Below, piece after piece: positions 1 through 24,325 of a DNA stretch of 64,000 nucleotides (its first letter is position 1; each line of letters begins with the position of its first letter). Where the stretch lies: the NCBI RefSeq assembly GCF_013408655.1, contig NZ_JACCBP010000001.1, forward strand, positions 2,914,001-2,978,000. Direction: 5' to 3'. Source of the stretch: Pigmentiphaga litoralis. Lineage in GTDB: Bacteria > Pseudomonadota > Gammaproteobacteria > Burkholderiales > Burkholderiaceae_B. Under the pieces are notes generated by a model, which saw only the letters and a list, made by a program, of their open reading frames with translations, had not been told where the DNA came from and ran no database searches. The position numbers and the translations under genes are program-made.

Positions 1-357
1 CTGACCGAAAAGCTCAAGAGCTGCGAAGAGTTCCTGATCCTGCCGGAAGCAACCGAGAAAGCCGATCCATCGTGGTTCGGCTATCCGATCACCGTTAAGG
101 AAGACGCCGGCGTAACGCGTCTGGACCTGACGACCTACCTGGACCAGAACAAGATTGGCACGCGTCTGCTGTTCGCGGGCAACCTGACGCGCCAGCCGTA
201 CATGCTGGGCCGCAACTTCCGCATCTCTGGCGAACTGACCAACACCGACCGCATCATGAACCAGACGTTCTGGATCGGGCTGTACCCAGGCCTGTCGCGT
301 GAAATGCTCGACTACACCGTCGAAAAGATCGAAACGTTCCTGGGCGTGAACTTCTGA
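1..357 (+). CDS. rfbH: RfbH-type CDP-4-keto-6-deoxyglucose 3-dehydrase, C-terminal part
   Basis: The window opens inside this gene; 118 C-terminal residues are visible, ending NF before TGA at 355. The stretch with SWFGYPITVK, NKIGTRLLFAGN, QPYM and the IMNQTFWIGLYPGL motif matches the C-terminal domain of RfbH/DdhC. These are PLP- and [2Fe-2S]-dependent enzymes that, with a reductase, remove the C-3 hydroxyl of CDP-4-keto-6-deoxyglucose to make the precursor of 3,6-dideoxyhexoses (established for the family). The PLP and cluster residues lie upstream of the window and cannot be checked. The next gene is an SDR enzyme and the two after that are transketolase subunits, so this looks like the entry step to an unusual O-antigen sugar. 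Confidence 0.85.
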   Translation: MTEKLKSCEEFLILPEATEKADPSWFGYPITVKEDAGVTRLDLTTYLDQNKIGTRLLFAGNLTRQPYMLGRNFRISGELTNTDRIMNQTFWIGLYPGLSREMLDYTVEKIETFLGVNF

Positions 358-367
358 TAACGGAACA

Positions 368-388
368 TGCCGGGCTCAATGCCCGGCA
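368..388 (+). repeat. Perfect 8-bp intercistronic hairpin
   Basis: TGCCGGGC (368-375), a 5-base loop, then GCCCGGCA (381-388), directly after the rfbH stop. No T-run follows, so it does not look like a complete intrinsic terminator. An mRNA stabiliser or partial attenuator between rfbH and the SDR gene is possible. The next gene's start codon lies 5 or 23 bases downstream, depending on which start is used. Confidence 0.6.
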
Positions 389-392
389 GGAT

Positions 393-1472
393 TTGACGAG
401 CGGAAAACAAGTGACTGTCAGCAGCATCGCGGAAGACGATTTCAAGCACATCCTGGAGCATGGTGAAGGGGTGTGGGAAGCGCTGAGGGGCAAGTCCATC
501 TTCCTCACCGGCGCAACCGGCTTCGTCGGCAAGTGGATGCTTGAAGCGCTTTGCCGGGCGAACGATATTTACGGCCTCGGGGTGAAAGCCACCCTGCTGA
601 CGCGTCGGCCTTCGGCCTTCACGACTGAAGCGCCGCACCTTGCCCGGCATGCTGCCATCGAACTGCTTGAGGGTGACGTCCGCACCTTTCCGGCTGACGG
701 GCTTCCCTCATTCGACTACATCGTTCACGCTGCCACGGACGTGTCCGCGGACGCAAGTCCAGCAGCGCATCTCGACGTGTTCGACGTAAACCTGACGGGC
801 ACTCGCCGCGTCCTCGACCTGGCGCGGCGAGGAGGCTGCGAGGGACTGCTACTGACAAGTTCCGGCGCGGTCTACGGCAGCGTTCCTCCGGACATGAGCC
901 TGACGCCGGAAACCTACCTGGGCGGCCCTGATCCGATGCGGCTCGCGTCGGCTTATGGACTCGGAAAAAAGAGTTCGGAGTGGATGGCAACCGCTTACGA
1001 CAGCGCTTACGACATTCCTGTAAAGATCGCCCGGATCTACGCCCTTGTCGGACCCTACCTTGCGATCGACAAGCACTTTGCCATTGGCAATTTCATCAAG
1101 AACAAACTGGCATCCGAACCTATCGTGATCCAGGGGGACGGTACTCCTTTCAGATCCTACTTGTACGCAGCCGATCTGGCGTTGTGGCTCTGGACCATCC
1201 TTGTCAAAGGCAAGCGTGCCGAGGCCTACAACGTGGGGTCCGACATGCCGATTTCCTTGGGGGATCTGGCGGCTCGGGTCGCGAAGGCGAGCGGAGCCGT
1301 TGTACCTGTCCACATCCGGCAGACTCCGTCTCCTGCAGCACCGGCGCAGCAATACGCGCCTGACATCACGAAAGCACGCGATGACCTGGGTCTGGCGGTC
1401 CGTGTCTCGCTCGATGATGCGATTGAAAGAACACTTGCCTGGCATCGCGCAGGTGGCACGCGTGCCGCCTGA
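393..1472 (+). CDS. NAD-dependent epimerase/dehydratase (extended SDR), dideoxyhexose pathway
   Basis: A 359-residue extended short-chain dehydrogenase. The Rossmann motif GATGFVG is at residues 40-46 and the catalytic YGLGK (YxxxK) at 188-192, preceded by LLLTSSGAVYG. After RfbH one expects a C-4 ketoreductase (as in CDP-paratose/abequose synthesis) or, if the following transketolase builds a side chain, a reductase of that side chain comparable in role to YerF of yersiniose synthesis; the sequence does not decide. The longest frame starts at TTG 393, but GTG at 411 (MTVSS) has a more plausible spacing to upstream purines. The gene is followed after a 65-base gap by the transketolase pair. 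Family assignment is firm; substrate is inferred. Confidence 0.85.
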   Translation: MTSGKQVTVSSIAEDDFKHILEHGEGVWEALRGKSIFLTGATGFVGKWMLEALCRANDIYGLGVKATLLTRRPSAFTTEAPHLARHAAIELLEGDVRTFPADGLPSFDYIVHAATDVSADASPAAHLDVFDVNLTGTRRVLDLARRGGCEGLLLTSSGAVYGSVPPDMSLTPETYLGGPDPMRLASAYGLGKKSSEWMATAYDSAYDIPVKIARIYALVGPYLAIDKHFAIGNFIKNKLASEPIVIQGDGTPFRSYLYAADLALWLWTILVKGKRAEAYNVGSDMPISLGDLAARVAKASGAVVPVHIRQTPSPAAPAQQYAPDITKARDDLGLAVRVSLDDAIERTLAWHRAGGTRAA

Positions 1473-1537
1473 GTACCAGAAGCCCGACATCGGAATGATC
1501 ACTGGCCCGACGGCCAGCTTTACACAAGAGTCTCTAC

Positions 1538-2344
1538 ATGGCTGATTTCGATCCAAAGCGCATTCGAAGAACCATTCTGGACATGGCCTACTCGGGCAAG
1601 ACGGTCCATATTGGTTGCGCGTTCTCCATCGTCGAATTGCTAGCGGTTCTTTATAGAACGCACCTTCGATTTCCGGATGACAATCCCCGGCACGAACACC
1701 GGGATTACATGGTGCTGAGCAAGGGGCATGGCGTCATGGCTCAGTACGCATGCCTTGGTGAAAAGGGCTGGCTGAGTGACGAAGCCCTGCACAATTATTT
1801 CAAGAACGGCAGTGCGCTGAAAGGCCTTGCCGATACGCACATCCCGGGCGTCGAAGTGACGTCGGGCTCACTGGGCCATGGGTTGTCGGTCGGCACCGGG
1901 CTTGCACTTGCTGCGAAGCTCTCGAAAACCGATCAGAAGTGCTTTGCAATTGTCGGCGACGGAGAAATCAATGAAGGCCCGATCTGGGAAGCTGCGTTGT
2001 TCGCCACCCACTTCAAGCTCGACAATCTGGTCGTCATCGTCGATGCCAATGGCTTTCAGGCAATGGGTACGACCGACGAGGTCATGGCACTCGGCAACAT
2101 CGAATCGAAGTTTGCCGCGTTCGGGTTTGACGCAGTAACGATCGACGGCCACGACGAGGACAGCATCGACGAGACGGTGCGCAAGCTGTGCGACACCCAG
2201 AATGGCCGTCCGAAGGCATTGATTGCGCAGACAGTCAAAGGCAAGGGGGTGTCCTTCATGGAACATGACAACATCTGGCATTACACGCGCCTTAACGAGA
2301 CGACGTATGCCGACGCCATCGCGGAACTGGGGGCTGCAGCATGA
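1538..2344 (+). CDS. Transketolase, N-terminal subunit
   Basis: 268 residues covering only the ThDP pyrophosphate-binding half of transketolase. The motif GDG (140-142) with Asn171 in VDANGFQ forms the ThDP/Mg2+ site, and the conserved histidines H24, H64 (KGHG) and H114 (LGHG) are present. The stop overlaps the start of the C-terminal subunit (ATGA at 2341-2344), so the two chains are almost certainly co-translated and form one enzyme. Split transketolases occur in several specialised pathways that move two-carbon ketol units, including apulose and sulfosugar metabolism. Lying between RfbH/SDR and a flippase, this pair probably acts on a nucleotide sugar rather than in the pentose phosphate pathway; that role is inference. 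Confidence 0.92.
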   Translation: MADFDPKRIRRTILDMAYSGKTVHIGCAFSIVELLAVLYRTHLRFPDDNPRHEHRDYMVLSKGHGVMAQYACLGEKGWLSDEALHNYFKNGSALKGLADTHIPGVEVTSGSLGHGLSVGTGLALAAKLSKTDQKCFAIVGDGEINEGPIWEAALFATHFKLDNLVVIVDANGFQAMGTTDEVMALGNIESKFAAFGFDAVTIDGHDEDSIDETVRKLCDTQNGRPKALIAQTVKGKGVSFMEHDNIWHYTRLNETTYADAIAELGAAA

Positions 2345-3237
2345 GAGACGCTTTTTCCAACGCACTTGTCGCCGCCGCAAAAGCTGATCCAAAGGTGCTC
2401 TTGCTGACCGGCGACCACGGTTACGCCCTGTTCGACGCGTTTCGAAAGGCCTGCCCCGACCAATACATCAACTGCGGCATCGCCGAGCAGAACATGGTGG
2501 GCGTTGCGGCCGGCTTGGCCAAGGCAGGATATCGACCCGTGGTGTACGGACTGGCGGCCTTCGTCCCGGTACGCGTTGTCGAACAGATAAAGATCGACAT
2601 CTGCTATGAGCAGTTGCCCGTCATCCTGATCGGCGACGGCGCGGGCGTCGTGTATAGCCACCTGGGCGCCAGCCATCAGAGCTTCGAAGATATCAGTGTC
2701 CTGCGACCGATCCCTCATCTTTCCATCTACTCGCCTGCCGATCGGCACGAACTGACCGCGAGCATGGATGCAATGTTCGCTTCGAAATCGGCGTGCTACA
2801 TGCGAATGGGCAAGGCCGACCTGGGCGACGTGCATGAGGGACCTGTCACAGCCGAATCCGCGATCATCAACGTCCGCGATGAAAAAGAAACAACCTTGAT
2901 CATCGCAACGGGTTCAGGCGTGAATACCGCCTTGCAAATCGCTGACTCGCTGGGGGGCGCCGCGGTGTATTCAGTTCCTCGCATCAAGCCGTTCACCGCT
3001 GCCGATCTCGGTCCGGTCATTGGCGGGCGGAAACGGATCATCGTGATCGAGGAGCACTCGGTGCATGGTGGTCTGGCCAGCACCATTGCAGAATTGATCG
3101 TCGGAAAGTTTCAAGGACAGTTCCATGCCTACGGCGTGCGCGACCAATTCTCGGAAACCTGCGGCGATTACAGGCACCTGATGCAGGAACACGGGCTTTC
3201 CGCGCAGGCGATCATGCACGATCTGGAAGCTGCCTGA
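2341..3237 (+). CDS. Transketolase, C-terminal subunit
   Basis: 298 residues with the pyrimidine-binding and C-terminal domains of transketolase. The catalytic glutamate that activates ThDP is E49 in GIAEQN, and the segment with GDGAGVVYSHLGASHQ is the usual substrate-channel loop. The C-terminal domain begins around residue 180. Translationally coupled to the N-terminal subunit by a 4-base overlap. A generic housekeeping transketolase would be a single chain of about 660 residues; this two-gene form within a polysaccharide cluster points to a dedicated sugar-branching or chain-extending step. Followed by a 54-base gap to the flippase gene. Confidence 0.92.
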   Translation: MRDAFSNALVAAAKADPKVLLLTGDHGYALFDAFRKACPDQYINCGIAEQNMVGVAAGLAKAGYRPVVYGLAAFVPVRVVEQIKIDICYEQLPVILIGDGAGVVYSHLGASHQSFEDISVLRPIPHLSIYSPADRHELTASMDAMFASKSACYMRMGKADLGDVHEGPVTAESAIINVRDEKETTLIIATGSGVNTALQIADSLGGAAVYSVPRIKPFTAADLGPVIGGRKRIIVIEEHSVHGGLASTIAELIVGKFQGQFHAYGVRDQFSETCGDYRHLMQEHGLSAQAIMHDLEAA

Positions 3238-3291: not shown

Positions 3292-4491
3292 ATGAAGGGG
3301 AACTTCTCGCTGATCATGCTGCGACTGGGCAGCATCGTTCTTCAGCTCGTCTACATCAAGATCTATACGAACTTTCTGACTGCTGAAGAGTTGGGACGCT
3401 TTTTCTATCTGATCGCCCTGTCGTATTCAGCCAATGCCCTGGTGTTCATACCGCTTGATTATTACCAGCAGGCGAAGTTGATTGCTTTCTACGATAAACC
3501 GGTACCAATCAAGGCGTTTCTGGGACTCAACGCCAAAGCCGCCTTGATTGCACTGATTTTCGTTACGGTCGTGGGCAGCATCTTCTGGCATTACAGCAAG
3601 ATCGAGATGCACGAAATTCCGCAGGTGCTGCTGTACTCGGCCCTGTTGCACGTCTGTACGGCAAGCCGGAACCTGCTGAATAACCTGCACCGACGCCTGT
3701 TCGTGGTGGTTGCGCTCATTCTGGAAGCTTTATTGCGGGGCGGACTGTTTGCAGGTTCACAACTGTTCCGGCCCCCAACGGCGGAGACCCTTTTTCAAAC
3801 TGCGATCATTGCCTATGCGATCGAAGCGCTGATCATCGGGTATTACTTCAAGAAAAACGTTCCGATATCGCAAGACTCGACTTACCGACTGAGCATGCGT
3901 GACGCAGCGATCGCGTCCTATCCCGTATCGTTTTCAGCCGTCTGCAACTGGATCCAGATACAAGCTTACCGCCTGGTCTATGTAGGACTCGGCTTCGCCT
4001 CGATCGCAGGTATCTATGCGACCGTGGCAAACGTCGGATCCGTCGGGATGAACGCCTTGGCCCAAATAGCTTCGCAGATCCTCACGCCAAGGCTCTATCG
4101 GTCACAAGGAACGTATCTGCTGAAATACCTGACCATCGCCGTCGGTCTGGTGTTCACTGCGATCGTTGGATATGCGGTTCTGGGCCAACTCGTTCTCAAG
4201 ATCTTGACTCGCGAAACGCTGGCCGCATACTGGCCGATCCTGCTCTTTGGAGCATCCGTTGAAGGCTTGAACTTCCTGATTGGCATCATTACGACGTATT
4301 TGACGATCAATCAAAAGGCGACCCAGTTGGTTACTGCAAACCTTCTTGGCGTCGTTGCCGTTCTGGTTTCATTCTATGCCGTTTACCTATACGACCTGTC
4401 GAATGTTTATCTGATCGGTATTCCATTGCTGGTTTCCCAGCTCGTCGTATGCTTGCATCTGTTTTATCTGACTCAAATCAACAACCGATAG
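3292..4491 (+). CDS. Wzx-like polysaccharide flippase
   Basis: 399 residues, overwhelmingly hydrophobic, with about 12 predicted membrane segments and a start typical of the MOP/PST superfamily (LGSIVLQLVYIKIYTNFLTAEELGRFF). These proteins move undecaprenyl-linked repeat units across the inner membrane. It lies between the dideoxysugar genes and the first GT2, with TAG 8 bases before the next start, so it belongs to the same transcript. It is the only flippase candidate seen in the cluster. The Wzx assignment rests on topology and context because the family has weak sequence conservation; confidence in the exact substrate is low. Confidence 0.82.
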   Translation: MKGNFSLIMLRLGSIVLQLVYIKIYTNFLTAEELGRFFYLIALSYSANALVFIPLDYYQQAKLIAFYDKPVPIKAFLGLNAKAALIALIFVTVVGSIFWHYSKIEMHEIPQVLLYSALLHVCTASRNLLNNLHRRLFVVVALILEALLRGGLFAGSQLFRPPTAETLFQTAIIAYAIEALIIGYYFKKNVPISQDSTYRLSMRDAAIASYPVSFSAVCNWIQIQAYRLVYVGLGFASIAGIYATVANVGSVGMNALAQIASQILTPRLYRSQGTYLLKYLTIAVGLVFTAIVGYAVLGQLVLKILTRETLAAYWPILLFGASVEGLNFLIGIITTYLTINQKATQLVTANLLGVVAVLVSFYAVYLYDLSNVYLIGIPLLVSQLVVCLHLFYLTQINNR

Positions 4492-11685: not shown

Positions 11686-12999
11686 TCAGCGTTTCGTAGC
11701 AGCTAAATTCGAAAGATATTTTCCAGGCATAATAACAAACCGTTTTCGCTGGACCAAAAATATTGATATGAACACCGCCGGTATAAAATAAAGGCTCAGC
11801 GCGTAAAACGCTGAAATCGGAATGAGTGCATAACTAAGCACTACGGTGACCACTGCCAGCACGAAAGTATCGTTCGTGCCGTTTATCAGTGATTTTGCTA
11901 TGCGCATGAAGCACCCCAGCAGAAATCCCGATAGCGCAGGCACCATCACGACGCCTATCCAGCCGAAGCTCACATAGCCCCAAAGCGAGATTGGTAGCCG
12001 AAGGCCGCCTGAAACAATCTCTGTAACGTCAGCGCCGTCGTTAAGCTGGTTCAGCGTCCACACGGATGGATTCCATTCATAGGAGAATGGCACAAGACCT
12101 CCAATGAATGTTCTTCCATACGTCCACGGCGACCCATGTGAAATGAACGCCTCCAGCAGGTTCAATTGATCTACCATGTCCGGAGCCCCTGCGGCTACCA
12201 TATCAGCGAAGCTCTGGCCACCTTCACTGGTCGAGAAAAGCTGGAGGCCAGTCAGCACCGAAAGCATGTAATTAAATATACTGCCTGCCAGATTAAGACC
12301 AATCACGAATACAAAATAGATTAAAAACCAACGAAGTTTACGAGCCGCCAAGACCCCGCCGGCCAAGATCAACCAGTTCGCGGCCGCGCCTTTTGCAAGC
12401 GACACCATAATCAGTAAGCCCAGCAATACGCTGGCAAAAAGGAACCATCGCTTCTTAGTTACGAATGAGTAAACTGCGGCGATTGGCATCACAAAGATCG
12501 CGATCATTAAGCCTGATCGAAAGAACCAAGCGGCACGCAGATAGCTATCTCGGTACTCACCTTTGAACTGCTTGGCCGATAGCGGGTCAGCCGCGAACAT
12601 AGGTACAAAACCCATAATCACGTACCCTAGGACCAATAAACCAATAGCTAGAACCAGTAGTATCTTCAGCTGCTTTGCAGCATTACGTTCAAAGTTTCGG
12701 GTTTGCAGAATCGCGATTTTTCGCTTAATCCAGCCTTTGCGAACTGAATAGAATCTAGACGCTTGAAGTCCAAGGAGGTATGCGATCGCACCAACAAACG
12801 AGGTCCAGACGTAAATGTCCAGCGATTCTTGAGAAAACCCAGCGTAATAATTTGTGAACAGTCCGGGAATTAAGTAGCCAATTACAATAAATCCCGCGGA
12901 GACATGCGTGACAATATTCGTCCGGCTGAACCAAATTGTGTAGGCTCCCACAATCTGTATGGAAAGGCCAATAACAAGGATAATGCTATAGAAGAGCAT
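11686..12999 (-). CDS. Wzy-like O-antigen/oligosaccharide repeat-unit polymerase
   Basis: About 437 residues if started at ATG 12999 (MLFYSIILVIGLSIQ); an in-frame TTG at 13044 would add 15 residues. It has 10-12 hydrophobic segments and a large periplasmic loop (roughly residues 245-320) containing HGSPWTYGRTFIGGLVPF, in keeping with OatWY/Wzy-type polymerases that join lipid-linked repeat units. The base composition is visibly more A+T-rich than the flanking genes, which is usual for wzy genes and suggests acquisition by transfer. Assignment is by topology and context. Confidence 0.75.
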   Translation of the reverse strand: MLFYSIILVIGLSIQIVGAYTIWFSRTNIVTHVSAGFIVIGYLIPGLFTNYYAGFSQESLDIYVWTSFVGAIAYLLGLQASRFYSVRKGWIKRKIAILQTRNFERNAAKQLKILLVLAIGLLVLGYVIMGFVPMFAADPLSAKQFKGEYRDSYLRAAWFFRSGLMIAIFVMPIAAVYSFVTKKRWFLFASVLLGLLIMVSLAKGAAANWLILAGGVLAARKLRWFLIYFVFVIGLNLAGSIFNYMLSVLTGLQLFSTSEGGQSFADMVAAGAPDMVDQLNLLEAFISHGSPWTYGRTFIGGLVPFSYEWNPSVWTLNQLNDGADVTEIVSGGLRLPISLWGYVSFGWIGVVMVPALSGFLLGCFMRIAKSLINGTNDTFVLAVVTVVLSYALIPISAFYALSLYFIPAVFISIFLVQRKRFVIMPGKYLSNLAATKR

Positions 13000-13302
13000 G
13001 ACGTGCCTGAGGACGTTACTGCGCACCGCTAGGTGAACTACCAAAACTCACTATGCGAGATTGGTTCACAGGGATCAAATAGAATCGACAAACGGGAGTT
13101 AACGTTTAATCCAGCCCATAGGAACCTTCCAATACTTTCAAAGGGTATTACATCAGCGAAGGTATTGATCGCCAGCTTCCACTTTCGGGCAAACGGGCTA
13201 TTCAGCTTGACAGGCCAGCAAACGTTTCAGATTGAACATTCTCGGAAAGCACGGCTCAACTGCACTGACACTGATATGAAGCAGGCATCACTCAACCGCT
13301 TG
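13000..13302. other. A+T-rich intergenic region between wzy-like and wzz-like genes
   Basis: About 300 bases with no convincing reading frame on either strand and a lower G+C content than the flanking housekeeping genes. The polymerase promoter may lie here, but I could not identify a good -35/-10 pair. The base composition matches the adjoining polymerase gene, so the segment was probably acquired with it. Confidence 0.5.
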
Positions 13303-14496
13303 TTAACGACCAAGTGCGCGTCTGAATGTGGTACGCAATTTTCCCAGCTTTTCCGCTGCGACTGGATCACGTCCACCGGCCCACAAAATCTGTCTAACAA
13401 AAACAAATATCAGCAGTAGAAAACCGGCGATAAATGTTGCAGCTACGGCAATAGTGGCGCGCTTAGGCTTTGACTTCAATTCAGGTGGATTTGCGACGTC
13501 GACCACCTGGATGGACGCGCCCTCGCGGCTTTCGTCGATCTTCGCTGTTTCGAACTGGCGGGCGAACAAGTCGAACAAGGTCTCCTGGTACTTGAACTCA
13601 CGGTACTTGGCGATGTAATCATTGCCCCCGACATTCCCTGCGGGCTGCTCACGCTCGGCCTTGGATAGCTGATTCCGAAGCGCCGACAACTCGGCTTGCG
13701 CCTGACGAAATTCCGGGGCCGTCTCGGTCAGATAGCTGCGCATTGCCGCGAGCCTGACCTCTTGCGCAGTCACCTGCGCGCGCAGGCGGGCCGGGCCTTC
13801 CAGCGCGGTGGACGGGTTCGCGTTCAATGCCGATGGGCTCACGCCGCTGGCGGCAAGGGCCTGTTCGGCGCGGATCAGGTTTTCTTTGGTGGACGCGAGC
13901 TGCTTCTCGAAGAACACGCGTCGCTGCTGGGCTTCCGTAATGGCAAGCCTGTTCAACAGCTCACCCAGCTCGGCCACGTACGTGTTAGCCACATTCGCTG
14001 CAAACTTCGGATCATGATCATCGAATTCGACGGTGATCAGGCCATCCTTGCCTGCATTGATGCGCGTGTTGCCATCAAGCGTCTTGCGGGTGGACTGCCG
14101 GTATTCCTGCTCATAGCGTTCCATCAATGCAAACTTGTCGATCAGGGCATCCTGCACCGTGTTGGTTCGCAGAAAGGCAACGTATTGGTCGGACGGATTC
14201 TTGATGCCCGCCGCAGCGCCTGCGAGGCCCCCCAGGCCGCCCAATGACTGCAGCATTCCAAGCGCCGCGCTCTGTTGCTGTTGCGGAGGAAGGAACTTTG
14301 CAGTCGCAGTGAACGTGGGAGTGATCGCGAAGCTGATGGCCAACGCGATTACGCCGACCAAAAGGGGTCCCAGGATCAGCAGACGCAGGTTTTCCGCGAT
14401 GACCTGCATGACGTCTATCAGGCTCAACTCGTCGTCGTTGGCAAGATAATCGCCAGGAACGCTGCCTGCGGGCTTGTTGATGGTGCTTTCGGTCAT
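13303..14496 (-). CDS. Wzz/GNVR-type polysaccharide chain-length determinant
   Basis: 397 residues. The N-terminal Wzz domain (ELSLIDVMQVIAENLRLL) is followed by a membrane segment at about 37-57, a long periplasmic part with coiled-coil character between about 165 and 290, a GNVR-like region (YREFKYQETLFDLFARQFE), and a second membrane segment near 345-365. The C-terminus is short and basic and lacks any Walker/BY-kinase domain. It regulates chain length or bridges to the outer-membrane exporter. It starts 4 bases after the wza-like stop, so the two are one transcription unit. Confidence 0.9.
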   Translation of the reverse strand: MTESTINKPAGSVPGDYLANDDELSLIDVMQVIAENLRLLILGPLLVGVIALAISFAITPTFTATAKFLPPQQQQSAALGMLQSLGGLGGLAGAAAGIKNPSDQYVAFLRTNTVQDALIDKFALMERYEQEYRQSTRKTLDGNTRINAGKDGLITVEFDDHDPKFAANVANTYVAELGELLNRLAITEAQQRRVFFEKQLASTKENLIRAEQALAASGVSPSALNANPSTALEGPARLRAQVTAQEVRLAAMRSYLTETAPEFRQAQAELSALRNQLSKAEREQPAGNVGGNDYIAKYREFKYQETLFDLFARQFETAKIDESREGASIQVVDVANPPELKSKPKRATIAVAATFIAGFLLLIFVFVRQILWAGGRDPVAAEKLGKLRTTFRRALGR

Positions 14497-14500
14497 TACT

Positions 14501-16990
14501 TTACAAGTCCCTGATCACGCTAAGCGCCGCGACGCCAAGTCCGAGCTGCGAGAAGATCTGCGTCCAGTCTTTGAGCTGTCTTGCGACAAAGTTGCCTGTG
14601 GTCTCGCGATCCAGCTTTTCAGGAACGACGATGGTGTCGCCGGGCATCAGTGCCACCGACTCGACGCCACTGCTGAAGAATCCAGTGCTGGAGGCAAGGA
14701 TGCTGCCGTCAGCACGGACCACGAACATCTGCTTCAGATCCGCTTCGGGCCGCACGCCCGCGGACTTGATGACCTCACCCACGGTACGGCCGTTCTTGTA
14801 GATGAAGACGTTTTCGTTGTTGATGGCTCCCACGGCCGAGACAAAGCTCGGCACGGTTGGCACCATGACGCGGTCCCCGTCTTCCAGCGGCAGGTCAGGT
14901 AACGAAGCAATGCTCATCGACGGATTGCCCGCGCTCATTTCCAATGCGATACGGCCATTGCTGCGCAGCTTGCGAAGCGCTTCAAGCTGCGAGCGCGCCA
15001 GCGCCTGCTGCTGCTGAGCCACGGCCGCCTGCGCGGCGGCATCAGCTGTATTCCGGTTCGCCATGATGTACAGGATCTGGCTTTGCTGTTGCGATTCCAG
15101 ACGGCGGATCAACAAGTCCAGGTTTTGCTGCTGCTTCTGGCGAACCGATTCCCGATCGATTTCGATTCCATACACATATGCCTGGGGCGTCGTTCCGCCG
15201 ACACGCTGGATCAGCTGACCCATGGTTTCGCCGGGCAGCACCTCGTAGATGCCTGGCGCGCTGACCTCACCTTCCACGCGAACCAGCCGGGTGCGTTTCT
15301 CGGCGGGAAGCCTGAGATCGTTCTGGCTGAGAATCGTGACCACGTCACCCGGCTGCAGCACCAGGTTCTGGCTTTCGTCGCCCTGGAGCACAGCACGGCC
15401 CAGATTGAACGGAATCAACTGCGTGCGCAGCTTGTCACGGTCAAGCCGTTCGACCACGGCGTAGTCCCAATTGATTTCATCGACCATGCTCCGCACCCGG
15501 CGGTCCACCTGATTACCGGCCTTGGTGGCGTCGGAGCCAAGCGCTTCAGCGTTCTGAACCAGCAGATTCTTGCGAACGTAATAGTCGGCGGTGATGAGGG
15601 CGTCGCGTTCGGGAATCAGATCTCGAACCTTCATACCCTTGAACCAGCGATAACGCAGCGGCGCTGCCACGTTGCCCTGCAGCGTGACGGCATTTGCGAA
15701 TGCCGGGCTGATACCCAGCAACGTCACGATGTCGCCATCGCGAAGCGGCGTCGCCAGGCCAGCGTTATCCAACGCAAGATCCTGCACTTGCCTTGGCGGA
15801 TTCTGTTGGGGCGCGACCCGCTCGATCAACGCTTTGTGGGAAGTTGCCAAAGTAGGAACGCCGCCCCCCAGCGCAAGTATGTCACCCAGCGAGTTGCCAA
15901 CACTTTGCCCAGGCTTCAGCTCATAGATGGCCGCGTTATCCAACGCGCCTGCAATGGCTACCCGTGGCCCGACGGGTGGAATGACGATGACGTCGCCCGA
16001 GGCGAGCGGTACATCGCGCCCTTTCTCACCCCGACCGATGAAGTCATACAGGTCGAAAGTGGTGACCACCTTGCCGCCGCGCTTCAACTCGATGTTGCGC
16101 ATGCTGCCATTGGCGTTCGGCCCGCCACTTGCGAATAGCGCGTTGACAAGCGTGCCGAGACTCGACAGGTTATACGTGCCAGGCTGCTGAGCCTGCCCAA
16201 CGACATACACCTGGATGGAGCGCAATTTGCCGAGGCTCGCATTCAGGTTGAAGTTCGTAAAGGTCTTGCCAATGCTTTGCCGGAGGACTGCTTCCACGTC
16301 TGCGACGCGCGTTCCAGCCAGGTTCACAACGCCCACGCGCGGGATGCTTGCCTGCCCGTTGCGGTCGATCGTGACGCTGCCCTTGTAATCGACGCCGCCC
16401 CAGACCTGGACCTGCAGCTCATCGCCCGGACCAAGAACGTAATCGTCGCGCGCGGGCGCGCCGCCGTCTGGCGAGTAAGTCACCTGAGGCAGGTCAAACA
16501 GATCCTGTCCATAAACGGGCAGGAGGCGGCCGGTCGACTGCTGTACAAACTGCTGAAACTGGCTGATCTGCCGCTGGCGGGCCGGTGCATTCCCGTCTTT
16601 TTTCCCGCGCCGGGATGCGTCCGGGCCTTGCTCGCCGTTCATGTCGAGATCTTGCGGCCCACGCGAATCACGCAACGTGTTGGGGCCGGAGTCCAGCGAG
16701 TTGTTTCCCGCGCCCATGGGGGAAGTGCCAACTCCCATTCCGGGGACGTTATTGGCCCCGGTGGACGTTCCCGTACCGATCCCGCTGTTCGTCGCGCTTG
16801 TTGCCCGGGCTCCGTTCATCCCTGAACCGGTGACCGAACTGGGAGAAACGTAGGTGCCCCCGCCGGAAGTCGGCGCAGTGCTGCCCAAGCCATTCAACGA
16901 AAACTGCGCGAAGGCAGACGTACTGACCAGTGCAGCAAGTACGGCTGCAACTGTGCCGCGAAGCGGGCGGTGAAGGTAGGTGTAGGTCAT
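14501..16990 (-). CDS. Wza-like outer-membrane polysaccharide export protein, multi-SLBB
   Basis: 829 residues from ATG 16990, chosen because MTYTYLHRPLRG plus a hydrophobic run ending in SAFA|Q makes a normal signal peptide; ATG 17014 and 17032 are in-frame alternatives. No lipobox cysteine is seen. A low-complexity Gly/Ser/Thr region (about 30-130) is followed by the Poly_export domain (DDYVLGPGDELQVQVWGG) and several SLBB domains (IQVYVVGQAQQPGTY, VRVEGEVSAPGIYEVLPGETM and others). At more than twice the length of E. coli Wza it belongs to the long exporter group. Together with the Wzz-like protein it forms the export channel; no Wzc kinase or Wzb phosphatase gene is nearby. Confidence 0.9.
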   Translation of the reverse strand: MTYTYLHRPLRGTVAAVLAALVSTSAFAQFSLNGLGSTAPTSGGGTYVSPSSVTGSGMNGARATSATNSGIGTGTSTGANNVPGMGVGTSPMGAGNNSLDSGPNTLRDSRGPQDLDMNGEQGPDASRRGKKDGNAPARQRQISQFQQFVQQSTGRLLPVYGQDLFDLPQVTYSPDGGAPARDDYVLGPGDELQVQVWGGVDYKGSVTIDRNGQASIPRVGVVNLAGTRVADVEAVLRQSIGKTFTNFNLNASLGKLRSIQVYVVGQAQQPGTYNLSSLGTLVNALFASGGPNANGSMRNIELKRGGKVVTTFDLYDFIGRGEKGRDVPLASGDVIVIPPVGPRVAIAGALDNAAIYELKPGQSVGNSLGDILALGGGVPTLATSHKALIERVAPQQNPPRQVQDLALDNAGLATPLRDGDIVTLLGISPAFANAVTLQGNVAAPLRYRWFKGMKVRDLIPERDALITADYYVRKNLLVQNAEALGSDATKAGNQVDRRVRSMVDEINWDYAVVERLDRDKLRTQLIPFNLGRAVLQGDESQNLVLQPGDVVTILSQNDLRLPAEKRTRLVRVEGEVSAPGIYEVLPGETMGQLIQRVGGTTPQAYVYGIEIDRESVRQKQQQNLDLLIRRLESQQQSQILYIMANRNTADAAAQAAVAQQQQALARSQLEALRKLRSNGRIALEMSAGNPSMSIASLPDLPLEDGDRVMVPTVPSFVSAVGAINNENVFIYKNGRTVGEVIKSAGVRPEADLKQMFVVRADGSILASSTGFFSSGVESVALMPGDTIVVPEKLDRETTGNFVARQLKDWTQIFSQLGLGVAALSVIRDL

Positions 16991-22061: not shown

Positions 22062-23243
22062 TTAAGCGCGGCGCCAATTGGCAACCACAGCATCAATGAC
22101 GTATTGCTGTTCAGTCTCCAAAAGTGTCGGATAGAGCGGCAACGACAACGTGGCATTTCCAATGGCCTCGGCATTAGGAAGCGCACCCAAAGAAATCCCC
22201 AATTTTTCTTTTAGATAAGTCAGGGTGTGAATAGCGCGATAATTAACCGCCGTACCGATACCGGCCGTCTTGAGATCAACCAACATCGCATCGCGACGCT
22301 GTCCATGAGCTGCAACACTATCGACAATCTGTATGGTAAAGAGATGGTGCGAACTCTGTCCGCAACGCTTAACCAATCCGATCTCCAGGACACGGCTGCT
22401 CAATTCCGCCTCGTATCGATTCGCAAGCTGCTCACGCTTTTCGCGTTTAGTTTCTGCCTTCGGAAGCTGAGCCATAAGCACCGCCGCATCTAAGTCTGTC
22501 ATATTGGCCTTATAGCCGAGTTCCACCATATCCCAGTGCTGATGCACCGATAGATGCCTGTCGCTCGCAGATCGCGACATCCCATGGTTGCGCAGGCGCC
22601 GGAGCCGATCGGCCAAAGTCGAATTTCTAGTCGAAATTGCTCCGCCATCACCGGAAGTCAGGTTTTTGGTTGCATAAAACGAAAAAACCGCGCAGTCACT
22701 AAGATCACCTGGACGTACACCATCGCGCTCCATCTCCACACCATGCGCCGAATCTTCCACAATAAACAACGAGTGCCTGTTCGCGATGTCATATAACGCT
22801 CGCATATCGGCAAGTTGACCATAGAGGTGGACAGGCAAAATACCCACTGTCCGAGGGCTAATGGCTGCCTCGACGGCCCGCGGCTCGATCAATCCTGTCG
22901 TCCGTTCGACATCCACCAAAACTGGGCGAGCACCCAGATGCAATATGGCGCTAGCAGTCGCGGCGAAGGTCATCGCCGTGGTGATCACTTCATCGCCGGG
23001 TCCGACACCGAGTGCCTTGAGCGCCAGCAGCAATCCCATTGAACAACTATTGGTTCCGACGACATGGGGTGCAATAGACGTGCTGCCGGGCACCCCTTCA
23101 AGACCACGCACCAAGAACTTGGCGAGTTCCTCCTCGAAGGCTTCCACCTTGGGTCCCAAAGTCAAGAAAACCGTGTCGAGCACCTGCCGCCACGCCACCG
23201 CTTCGTCAACTCCCATCTGATGCCGGTAAAACTCGACTTTCAT
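22062..23243 (-). CDS. DegT/DnrJ/EryC1/StrS family sugar aminotransferase
   Basis: 393 residues, fold-type I PLP enzyme. The Schiff-base lysine is K193 in FSFYATKNLTSGDGG; D164 and H167 in VEDSAHGVE contact the cofactor, and VGTNSCSMGLLLALKALGVGPGDEVI is the family's N-terminal phosphate-binding region. It should transaminate a keto group on a nucleotide sugar to give an amino sugar. Its ATG overlaps the stop of the upstream SDR epimerase (TAATG at 23241-23245), so the two act in one pathway. An N-acetyltransferase for the new amine is not obvious apart from the membrane acyltransferase further upstream. Confidence 0.92.
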   Translation of the reverse strand: MKVEFYRHQMGVDEAVAWRQVLDTVFLTLGPKVEAFEEELAKFLVRGLEGVPGSTSIAPHVVGTNSCSMGLLLALKALGVGPGDEVITTAMTFAATASAILHLGARPVLVDVERTTGLIEPRAVEAAISPRTVGILPVHLYGQLADMRALYDIANRHSLFIVEDSAHGVEMERDGVRPGDLSDCAVFSFYATKNLTSGDGGAISTRNSTLADRLRRLRNHGMSRSASDRHLSVHQHWDMVELGYKANMTDLDAAVLMAQLPKAETKREKREQLANRYEAELSSRVLEIGLVKRCGQSSHHLFTIQIVDSVAAHGQRRDAMLVDLKTAGIGTAVNYRAIHTLTYLKEKLGISLGALPNAEAIGNATLSLPLYPTLLETEQQYVIDAVVANWRRA

Positions 23244-24325
23244 TACGCGATGCTGGCTTCAGGAACCGACACTACGGGCAGCATAAGGCCGAGACCTGAT
23301 TGAGCAAACAACGCGCGGTAGTGTCGCACCGTGTTCGACCGCTCATCATTAAGATCCACCTTTCCAGAACCGATTGCCTCGATGACCTCATGTATTCCCT
23401 GCTTGACCGACGTTGAAGCTGAGAATCCCAACTCAGTCTTTGCCGCGGCGAAATCTACATTATAGTTTCTTGAATCGCGACATTGCTTGCTGTACGCAAT
23501 AACTGACCCTGGCAAGCAGAGCTGTATATCGATGGCCAAATCTCGAATCTGCCAGTTATTTTCTCCCACACCGATGTTGAACACCCTGTTCGAAACAAGC
23601 CTCGAAGGCGCATTCAGCGCAATAATAAACGCCGATGCCGCATCACCCACGTGTACAAAAGGCCGCCACTGAAGGCCATCACCATCGACACATATTTTCC
23701 CCTCCGCGTATGCGGATTTCACCATGGCATTCAATGCGAGGTCGAATCTCATGCGGGGTGACACGCCAAAAAGGGTTCCGAGCCTAAGAACGACCGGTTG
23801 AAAAATTCCACTGGAGCACCGGCCTTTCGCTAAAAGCAGCTGCTCAATCTTTAGTTTAGACTGTGCATACAAGGTCTGCGGAGAGCACTGCGTCGCCTCC
23901 GTCATCTGCAGGCGTTCGCCATATCCGTAAACCGAGCATGAAGACGCATACACATATCGTCGTACGCCTACCGTCAAGGCCAGTTCAATCAGCCGCGAAG
24001 CGCCGCCGACATTTATGGCAGTCGTAACAGCCGGATCGAGGTCACACGCTGGATCGTTGGAAATGCCACATAGATCAACGACCGAATCAACGCCTTCAAG
24101 TACTGAATCATCGACATCGCGTATATCGGCTCGTACTAACTTCAGTGACCCTCGCTTCGCCGATGCGGTTGCCGCAAGACTATCGCCAAAGAAAAACCGG
24201 TCTAGTACTACGACGCTGTATCCCGCTTCAACCAGCAGCGGAACCAAGATACTGCCGACATATCCAGCTCCACCAGCAACCAACACCTTTCCGCCGGGTG
24301 ACCTGGCAGCAGAGAATTCATTCAT
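23243..24325 (-). CDS. NAD-dependent epimerase/dehydratase (extended SDR)
   Basis: 360 residues with GGAGYVG at 18-24 and the catalytic YAQSK in QTLYAQSKLKIEQ, preceded by YASSCSVYGYGE. It resembles the wide family of UDP/GDP/dTDP-sugar 4-epimerases and dehydratases; the precise reaction is unknown. Translationally coupled to the aminotransferase. Composition is more A+T-rich than housekeeping genes of the window, in line with the rest of the polysaccharide locus. An acyltransferase 3 gene lies 31 bases upstream. Confidence 0.88.
   Translation of the reverse strand: MNEFSAARSPGGKVLVAGGAGYVGSILVPLLVEAGYSVVVLDRFFFGDSLAATASAKRGSLKLVRADIRDVDDSVLEGVDSVVDLCGISNDPACDLDPAVTTAINVGGASRLIELALTVGVRRYVYASSCSVYGYGERLQMTEATQCSPQTLYAQSKLKIEQLLLAKGRCSSGIFQPVVLRLGTLFGVSPRMRFDLALNAMVKSAYAEGKICVDGDGLQWRPFVHVGDAASAFIIALNAPSRLVSNRVFNIGVGENNWQIRDLAIDIQLCLPGSVIAYSKQCRDSRNYNVDFAAAKTELGFSASTSVKQGIHEVIEAIGSGKVDLNDERSNTVRHYRALFAQSGLGLMLPVVSVPEASIA

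Follow-up and report, generated by a model that had tools for sequence, protein, structure and literature searches.

What does a transketolase split over two genes do in a cluster for dideoxy sugar nucleotides? A 64,000-nucleotide stretch of Pigmentiphaga litoralis DNA (contig NZ_JACCBP010000001.1, positions 2,914,001 to 2,978,000; the whole stretch is called the window below) raises this question, as it begins with the end of rfbH, a gene for an extended short-chain dehydrogenase/reductase (SDR), two transketolase genes (tktN and tktC) overlapping by 4 bases (ATGA at 2341-2344) and a Wzx-like gene, a layout that had been noticed from the letters alone and that open reading frames and families confirmed. 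The sequence-only reading had the transketolase add a glycolaldehyde unit to C-4 of the RfbH product and the SDR reduce the result to a branched octose, by chemistry other than that of YerE, the thiamine diphosphate (ThDP) enzyme of yersiniose synthesis. At a probability of roughly 0.6, we think that the locus makes one C-4-branched cytidine diphosphate (CDP) sugar, with the pair as a stand-in for YerE from another ThDP superfamily. The gene set of a C-4-branched CDP-3,6-dideoxysugar (rfbF, rfbG, rfbH, a ThDP enzyme and a reductase) is present, in the roles we infer for its members. With Transketolase_N on one chain and Transket_pyr plus Transketolase_C on the other, the pair belongs to the split transketolase superfamily and falls outside the YerE-like class of acetolactate-synthase-like single chains.

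The search suggested by the sequence-only reading, for rfbH near split transketolase pairs, bore the association out. When a genome collection was scanned with an alignment of tktN from close relatives, at least 578 places were confirmed, of which the best 80 were analysed: 50 loci (L007-L056 in our numbering) form the window's group, 25 are canonical split transketolases and 5 (L057, L060, L061, L071 and L082) belong to other groups. Among the matches listed, the family comprises at least 162 protein clusters, each at least 69% identical to its query. Counted as present at 50% identity or more and within 8 kilobases (kb) of the pair, RfbH occurred in 43 of the 50 window-group loci and in none of the 25 canonical ones, so that the association of rfbH, SDR and transketolase genes is more than chance; the canonical loci also had no rfbF, rfbG, SDR-A or SDR-B nearby. 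SDR-A, a loose class at 26% identity or more, is the window's SDR type, and SDR-B is another family. Neighbours in the window group were rfbF and rfbG (40 loci each), SDR-A (31) and SDR-B (13). When at least 4 kb of upstream sequence was available (40 loci), rfbF was found in 39 and the complete rfbF, rfbG and rfbH set in 38, and three loci scored as RfbH-less (L009, L027 and L055) have less than 1.5 kb upstream. Carriers of the module are found in records of Pseudomonadota, Planctomycetota, Chlorobiota and Elusimicrobiota. In L007, L008 and L029, a gene for a short membrane protein and one for a family-2 glycosyltransferase come next after the module (GtrA and Glycos_transf_2 were confirmed at L007:9708-11155, and L008:9708-13411 also holds a large DUF7024 protein), a layout like that of self-contained side-branch cassettes.

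A sample independent of tktN was obtained by searching for RfbH in 399 genomes of the order, which gave 50 above the cut-off, at 52 places; 51 RfbH regions, the window's own excluded, were fetched and typed. A ThDP gene was called YerE-type if it was an IlvI or PoxB relative with at least 400 aligned residues no more than 9.5 kb from RfbH. Nineteen regions had a YerE-type gene, 5 had a transketolase pair, none had both and 27 had neither; the 19 are an upper bound, some being far from RfbH or weak (L142, L145 and L155, 24-26% to IlvI), and two of the 27 (L107 and L154) are contigs of less than 5 kb. Three of the five pairs (L148, L151 and L166) have leucine at the position of His100 in Escherichia coli TktA, the numbering used for residues throughout, and belong to the window's clade; L147 and L156 have His100. 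The YerE-type enzyme of L124 matches 5ahk (602 bits), which we take to be PpYerE. That of L119 matches 8rph (457 bits), which is JanthE (PMC12188165; this and all other papers are cited from excerpts), and its neighbour is an SDR that shares 45% identity with that of the window. Six YerE-type proteins that were scanned fell below the acetolactate synthase model cut-offs, among the 25 families listed for each. Because of the 19, 5 and none-with-both split, together with the SDR families common to both types, the pair most likely replaces YerE. Two side observations belong here. Genome G251 has three RfbH copies: those of L133 and L140 each come with a YerE-type gene, next to SDR-B in the first and SDR-A in the second, and that of L154 is on a 3.1-kb contig; and L166, oriented by rfbH, has a Leu100 pair beside SDR-B and a His100 pair about 11 kb off (1150-2900 and 12948-15600).

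The SDRs connect the two kinds of region. SDR-A genes lie beside YerE-type genes in L119, L120 (43% to the window's SDR), L123 (34%), L140 (30%) and others, and SDR-B genes do so in L124, L128, L133, L137 and L146 while accompanying transketolase pairs in L148 and L166. Within the RfbH sample, SDR-A was found in 9 of 19 YerE-type and 2 of 5 transketolase regions; the figures for SDR-B were 5 of 19 and 2 of 5, with 0 of 27 among the other regions. On a 36-row SDR-A tree, the transketolase/YerE label needs 5 changes, at least 4 of them forced by starred branches, with 3 of the 7 YerE-type rows (L142, L158 and L164) long and unsure; on a 20-row SDR-B tree, it needs 2, of which 1 is forced. Since one SDR partner serves both, the YerE-type and transketolase enzymes would make the same kind of intermediate, and the common partner is the strongest sign that two such unlike ThDP enzymes do so.

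The window's SDR carries SSGAVYG in place of the dehydratase Asp-Glu pair, YGLGK, and TRR after beta-2. In the alignment, where a few of the 56 rows fall outside the motif tallies, SSGAxYG is present in 49 rows and the Asp-Glu pair in none, YxxxK is kept in all rows listed and an arginine directly follows beta-2 in 50 of the 51 listed. The Asp-Glu pair is a dehydratase feature, and an arginine after beta-2 suits reduced nicotinamide adenine dinucleotide phosphate (NADPH). A 4,6-dehydratase was rejected, as the Asp-Glu pair is missing, and the window's SDR is predicted to be an NADPH reductase of the side-chain ketone, in a YerF-like role. These motifs, and the same families beside YerE-type genes, support the earlier suggestion that the SDR reduces the branched product.

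The pair itself is remodelled. We aligned 49 window-group loci (L007-L055) with 29 other split transketolases (L058-L086), 4 of which (L060, L061, L071 and L082) are themselves remodelled. His261, Glu411 and His473 are kept in all 49 window-group loci, and His26 and His66 in 48 each, with one gap each; with the GDG...N motif, His66, Glu411 and His473, the ThDP site is intact. Four changes occur in 49 of 49 (His100 to Leu, His461 to Gly, Asp469 to Leu and Gln118 to His) and Arg520 is Lys in 48, with one gap, whereas the other 29 retain His100 in 29, His461 in 25, Asp469 in 25 and Arg520 in 26. The window, L056, L148, L151 and L166 have the family pattern. The pair thus departs from EC 2.2.1.1 on the donor side (His100) and at acceptor/phosphate residues (His461, Asp469 and, conservatively, Arg520). 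Ser385 was dropped as a diagnostic, alanine being there also in 25 of the 29 other split transketolases.

Several of these positions have been altered by enzyme engineers. Position 100 is consistently Phe in 1-deoxy-D-xylulose-5-phosphate synthase, and a Geobacillus transketolase became active with pyruvate through H100F and, more so, through H100L (PMC7661550). An E. coli 6M variant including H100L and D469T was built for pyruvate and propanal (PMC10787763), H102L/H474S and L191I/D470L were used in the Geobacillus stearothermophilus enzyme for pyruvate and propanal, respectively (PMC7696235), and S385, D469 and R520 were altered in shifting from phosphorylated to unphosphorylated acceptors (PMC5073344). 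The family thus naturally has much of what engineers introduced for pyruvate as donor and for acceptors that lack phosphate and hydroxylation; the RfbH product lacks the hydroxyl at C-3, adjoining the ketone. Because His100 to Leu lets engineered transketolases use pyruvate, we propose pyruvate as the donor. Judged from gene context and residues, C-4 branching by the pair is very probable, a donor that is pyruvate or another simple 2-oxo acid and not a ketol is probable, and a yersiniose-type product is somewhat favoured.

In the pathway we propose, RfbF and RfbG would give CDP-4-keto-6-deoxyglucose, which RfbH, aided by an electron-transfer partner from another part of the genome, would convert to CDP-4-keto-3,6-dideoxyglucose. 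TktN and TktC would assemble into one transketolase-superfamily enzyme with a remodelled pocket, which would form acyl-ThDP, most likely acetyl from pyruvate with release of CO2, and the acetyl group would be added to the C-4 ketone to give a 4-C-acetyl tertiary alcohol. Reduction of the side-chain ketone by the SDR, at the expense of NADPH, would yield a 4-C-(1-hydroxyethyl)-3,6-dideoxyhexose (yersiniose or an epimer), and the branched sugar would enter an exported polysaccharide. Gene content, recurrence, interchange with YerE and residue changes were computed; each reaction is predicted from genes and residues. Of the sequence-only reading, the acceptor, C-4 branching through the split transketolase, the branched octose and a chemistry other than YerE's would stand, and the ketol unit would not: a glycolaldehyde donor is probably wrong for the window's clade, and a yersiniose-like hydroxyethyl branch appears likelier than a dihydroxyethyl one, given the leucine at position 100.

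A two-carbon ketol transferred to C-4 from xylulose-5-phosphate, fructose-6-phosphate or hydroxypyruvate, with the SDR giving a 4-C-(1,2-dihydroxyethyl) sugar, would suit the transketolase ancestry of the pair and its catalytic histidines, which are kept except at position 100; clusters of this kind, with these SDR families, also hold the pairs of a sister clade that has His100, and ketol transfer to a keto sugar has been proposed, unproven, for miharamycin and amipurimycin (PMC12247030). We consider it unlikely here, as leucine replaces His100 in every family locus aligned and in the window, and the pair occupies a slot common to YerE-type enzymes, YerE itself using pyruvate. The same leucine, by removing the ketol-side contact, would also fit an ErwE-like enzyme taking a longer or hydroxylated 2-oxo acid to build a long branch like that of erwiniose or caryophyllose, and donor length does vary among YerE-type relatives. 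No gene for an unusual 2-oxo acid was identified, a weak point given that most neighbouring open reading frames were left unannotated, and no sequence feature indicates chain length; this donor seems a good deal less probable still. That the SDR is an abequose/paratose-type 4-reductase yielding a plain 3,6-dideoxyhexose, with the transketolase serving another sugar or central metabolism, is very improbable: the pair has lost His461 and Asp469, which canonical split transketolases retain, and replaces YerE-type genes in otherwise similar modules, even if SDR-A-like genes do occur in 3 of the 27 RfbH regions where no ThDP gene was found. A housekeeping role for the pair was rejected, since ordinary transketolases (64% and 47% to TktA) are encoded at other places in the genome.

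Beside these SDR-A-like genes, several other observations weigh against the proposed pathway. SDR-A and SDR-B also lie beside pairs that keep His100 (L224, L227 and L220), so the SDR cannot tell acetyl from glycoloyl, and its identity was dropped as proof of the donor. An engineered H102L/H474S transketolase used pyruvate poorly (PMC7696235, in the excerpt). Six of the 50 window-group loci have neither SDR, and RfbH is truly missing from L026, L034, L046 and L056 despite at least 3.5 kb of upstream sequence (rfbF and an SDR are present in L034, and an SDR in L056). One window-group locus of the 50 has both a transketolase pair and a YerE-type gene (L048:8001-11971). We saw no dedicated RfbI/DdhD-type reductase in the cluster, and of 11 FAD_binding_6 matches in the genome, 5 were scanned and none reached an equivalog cut-off. 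No polysaccharide structure for a carrier was found. A link between the module and a known producer of yersiniose A was sought without success: Burkholderia brasiliensis, which Mattos reportedly described in 2005 as a yersiniose A producer, and Paraburkholderia kururiensis, which we take to be its present name, are both absent by name among the 120 matches listed, most of which lack an organism name. Yersiniose A and B differ at the side-chain carbon, and the reduction step was called uncharacterised in 2016 (PMC4753412); that the two SDR families make two yersiniose isomers is speculation.

Pairs of the sister clade, which keep His100, carry Gly461, Tyr466 and mostly Leu469 (L057, L060, L147, L156 and others). 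Of 398 genomes searched in the phylum, 92 had matches, and among 20 regions examined from the top of the list, His100 was present in all 20 and Gly461 with Tyr466 in 15; rfbF and rfbG were near the pair in 6 (L212, L213 and L214 are one genus). RfbH was near in only 2 of the 20, so most of these 20 pairs are not tied to RfbH. The order in L224 is rfbF, rfbG, rfbH, tktN, tktC, SDR-B; in L220 (2417-7000) it is rfbF, rfbG, tktN, tktC, SDR-A, with no rfbH match in the 14 kb read, so that the pair there adjoins the CDP-4-keto-6-deoxyglucose route. A 60-row tree, made by a quick method with a long outgroup, places the 27 Leu100 rows in one clade (support 100) nested in a clade of Leu100 and His100 rows (99). 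Remodelling of the acceptor pocket seems to have preceded the change at the donor position, and the sister clade may carry out ketol transfer. Tentatively, at somewhat less than even odds, split transketolases acting on nucleotide-sugar ketones would be a further bacterial class of C-4-branching enzymes in surface-sugar synthesis, the Leu100 type taking acetyl from pyruvate and the His100 type hydroxyacetyl; as part of the same tentative view, the His100 clade would give 4-C-(1,2-dihydroxyethyl) sugars, and some acceptors would retain the 3-hydroxyl where rfbH is missing (L220). Two further His100-type pairs, one directly 3' of a DegT aminotransferase gene (L071:6796-9748) and one after such a gene with a TylF-type methyltransferase gene between (L061:3412-7056), possibly reflect another keto-sugar use.

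Coordinates of the features in the window are collected in the table.

Table. Features at the 5' end of the window
Feature	Position	Strand	Remark
rfbH 3' end, DegT-fold CDP-4-keto-6-deoxyglucose 3-dehydrase	1..357	+	TGA stop 355-357; start 957 bases 5' of the window
SDR-A, extended SDR	411..1472	+	GTG start; PF01370 (Epimerase)
tktN, ThDP-binding N-terminal half of split transketolase	1538..2344	+	PF00456 (Transketolase_N)
Leu97 codon (CTT) of TktN, at E. coli TktA His100, donor side	1826..1828	+	alignment
tktC, pyrimidine-binding and C-terminal half of split transketolase	2341..3237	+	PF02779 (Transket_pyr), PF02780 (Transketolase_C)
TktC GDGAGVVYSHLGASHQSF	2632..2685	+	TktA His461 to Gly, Leu466 to Tyr, Asp469 to Leu; His473 kept
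Wzx-like flippase, next gene of polysaccharide cluster	3292..4491	+	named through homologues

The whole rfbH (L006:17044-18357, 437 amino acids) scores 759.6 bits against NF011936 (cut-off 423) and the window fragment alone 163.7; Pfam assigns the fragment product to the DegT family. An in-frame TTG at 393 is a longer alternative start for the SDR. The tktN product is 93% identical to a Pigmentiphaga litoralis protein, and the closest solved structures are 6yak for tktN and 6yaj for tktC. The Wzx label comes from 21 homologues (32-54% identity), 3 of them named 'O-antigen/teichoic acid export membrane protein' by one source; Pfam gave no match for the product of the gene at 3292. In the 18 kb 5' of the window (L006), a WbaP-type sugar-phosphate transferase gene and rmlB, D, A and C are followed by consecutive rfbF, rfbG and rfbH. 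Curated equivalog cut-offs are passed by rfbF, rfbG, rfbH, rmlB and rmlA, and a subfamily cut-off by the transferase, while rmlD and rmlC were identified by reading the sequence. The Wzx-like gene 3' of tktC is accompanied by genes for glycosyltransferases, a hexapeptide acetyltransferase, an acyltransferase, Wzz and an SLBB export protein; the region is a polysaccharide cluster. Defence-system models had no match. On the minus strand at 22062-24325 lie tandem DegT-like aminotransferase and SDR genes, with families assigned by reading the sequence.

What would be new here is a known C-4-branching pathway with another enzyme class. The excerpts of a 2025 review (PMC12247030) state that transketolases have not yet been used experimentally for tertiary alcohols, list 13 gene-cluster candidates, every one of them from Streptomycetes and as yet uncharacterised in vitro, note that there is no structure of a ketone-accepting transketolase, and place such enzymes only in Streptomyces secondary metabolism, unproven. 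In literature outside subscription, as represented by titles, term counts and the starts of abstracts, we found no paper assigning a transketolase to the branching of lipopolysaccharide sugars, and among the literature matches listed, only that review has 'yersiniose' and 'transketolase' together. This is a natural family whose gene context names the acceptor and whose residues match the changes that engineers made so that pyruvate would serve as donor. It opens a way to tertiary alcohols, and the choice between acetyl and ketol donors in ThDP enzymes could easily be tested with it. Many Burkholderiales are predicted to carry branched sugars in their surface polysaccharides, which a YerE-based search would overlook.

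Among known systems, the split transketolase of Carboxydothermus hydrogenoformans (6yak, 6yaj) has the same two-chain layout and the closest solved sequences, but it has His at position 100, where the window has Leu, and does not use pyruvate (PMC7661550, in the excerpt). Engineered transketolases (the E. coli H100L/D469T lineage and G. stearothermophilus H102L and D470L) are altered at the same positions as the window, the Geobacillus enzyme with Leu at both, but in separate variants. They are laboratory variants acting on aldehydes, whereas the window represents a natural family with a ketone as its probable acceptor. AviB1/AviB2 and Pau11/Pau12 belong to another ThDP superfamily and are pyruvate dehydrogenase E1-like. 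Likened by description, AviB1/AviB2 attach an acetyl branch, supplied by pyruvate, at C-4 of a sugar, and Pau11/Pau12 have been proposed to do likewise (PMC4753412). The split transketolases of miharamycin and amipurimycin synthesis in Streptomyces, also likened by description, are likewise proposed to have a keto sugar as substrate (PMC12247030, section 2.3), but there the setting is secondary metabolism and hydroxyacetyl transfer is proposed, whereas the window has Leu100 and a CDP-sugar polysaccharide cluster. The YerE pathway (yersiniose A of Yersinia pseudotuberculosis, with JanthE and other YerE-like enzymes) has, according to the review, the same acceptor, CDP-4-keto-3,6-dideoxyglucose; in both, a ThDP enzyme would add carbon at C-4 next to SDR families that YerE-type and transketolase regions have in common, but YerE is a single chain of the decarboxylase superfamily and the window's enzyme is of the split transketolase type.

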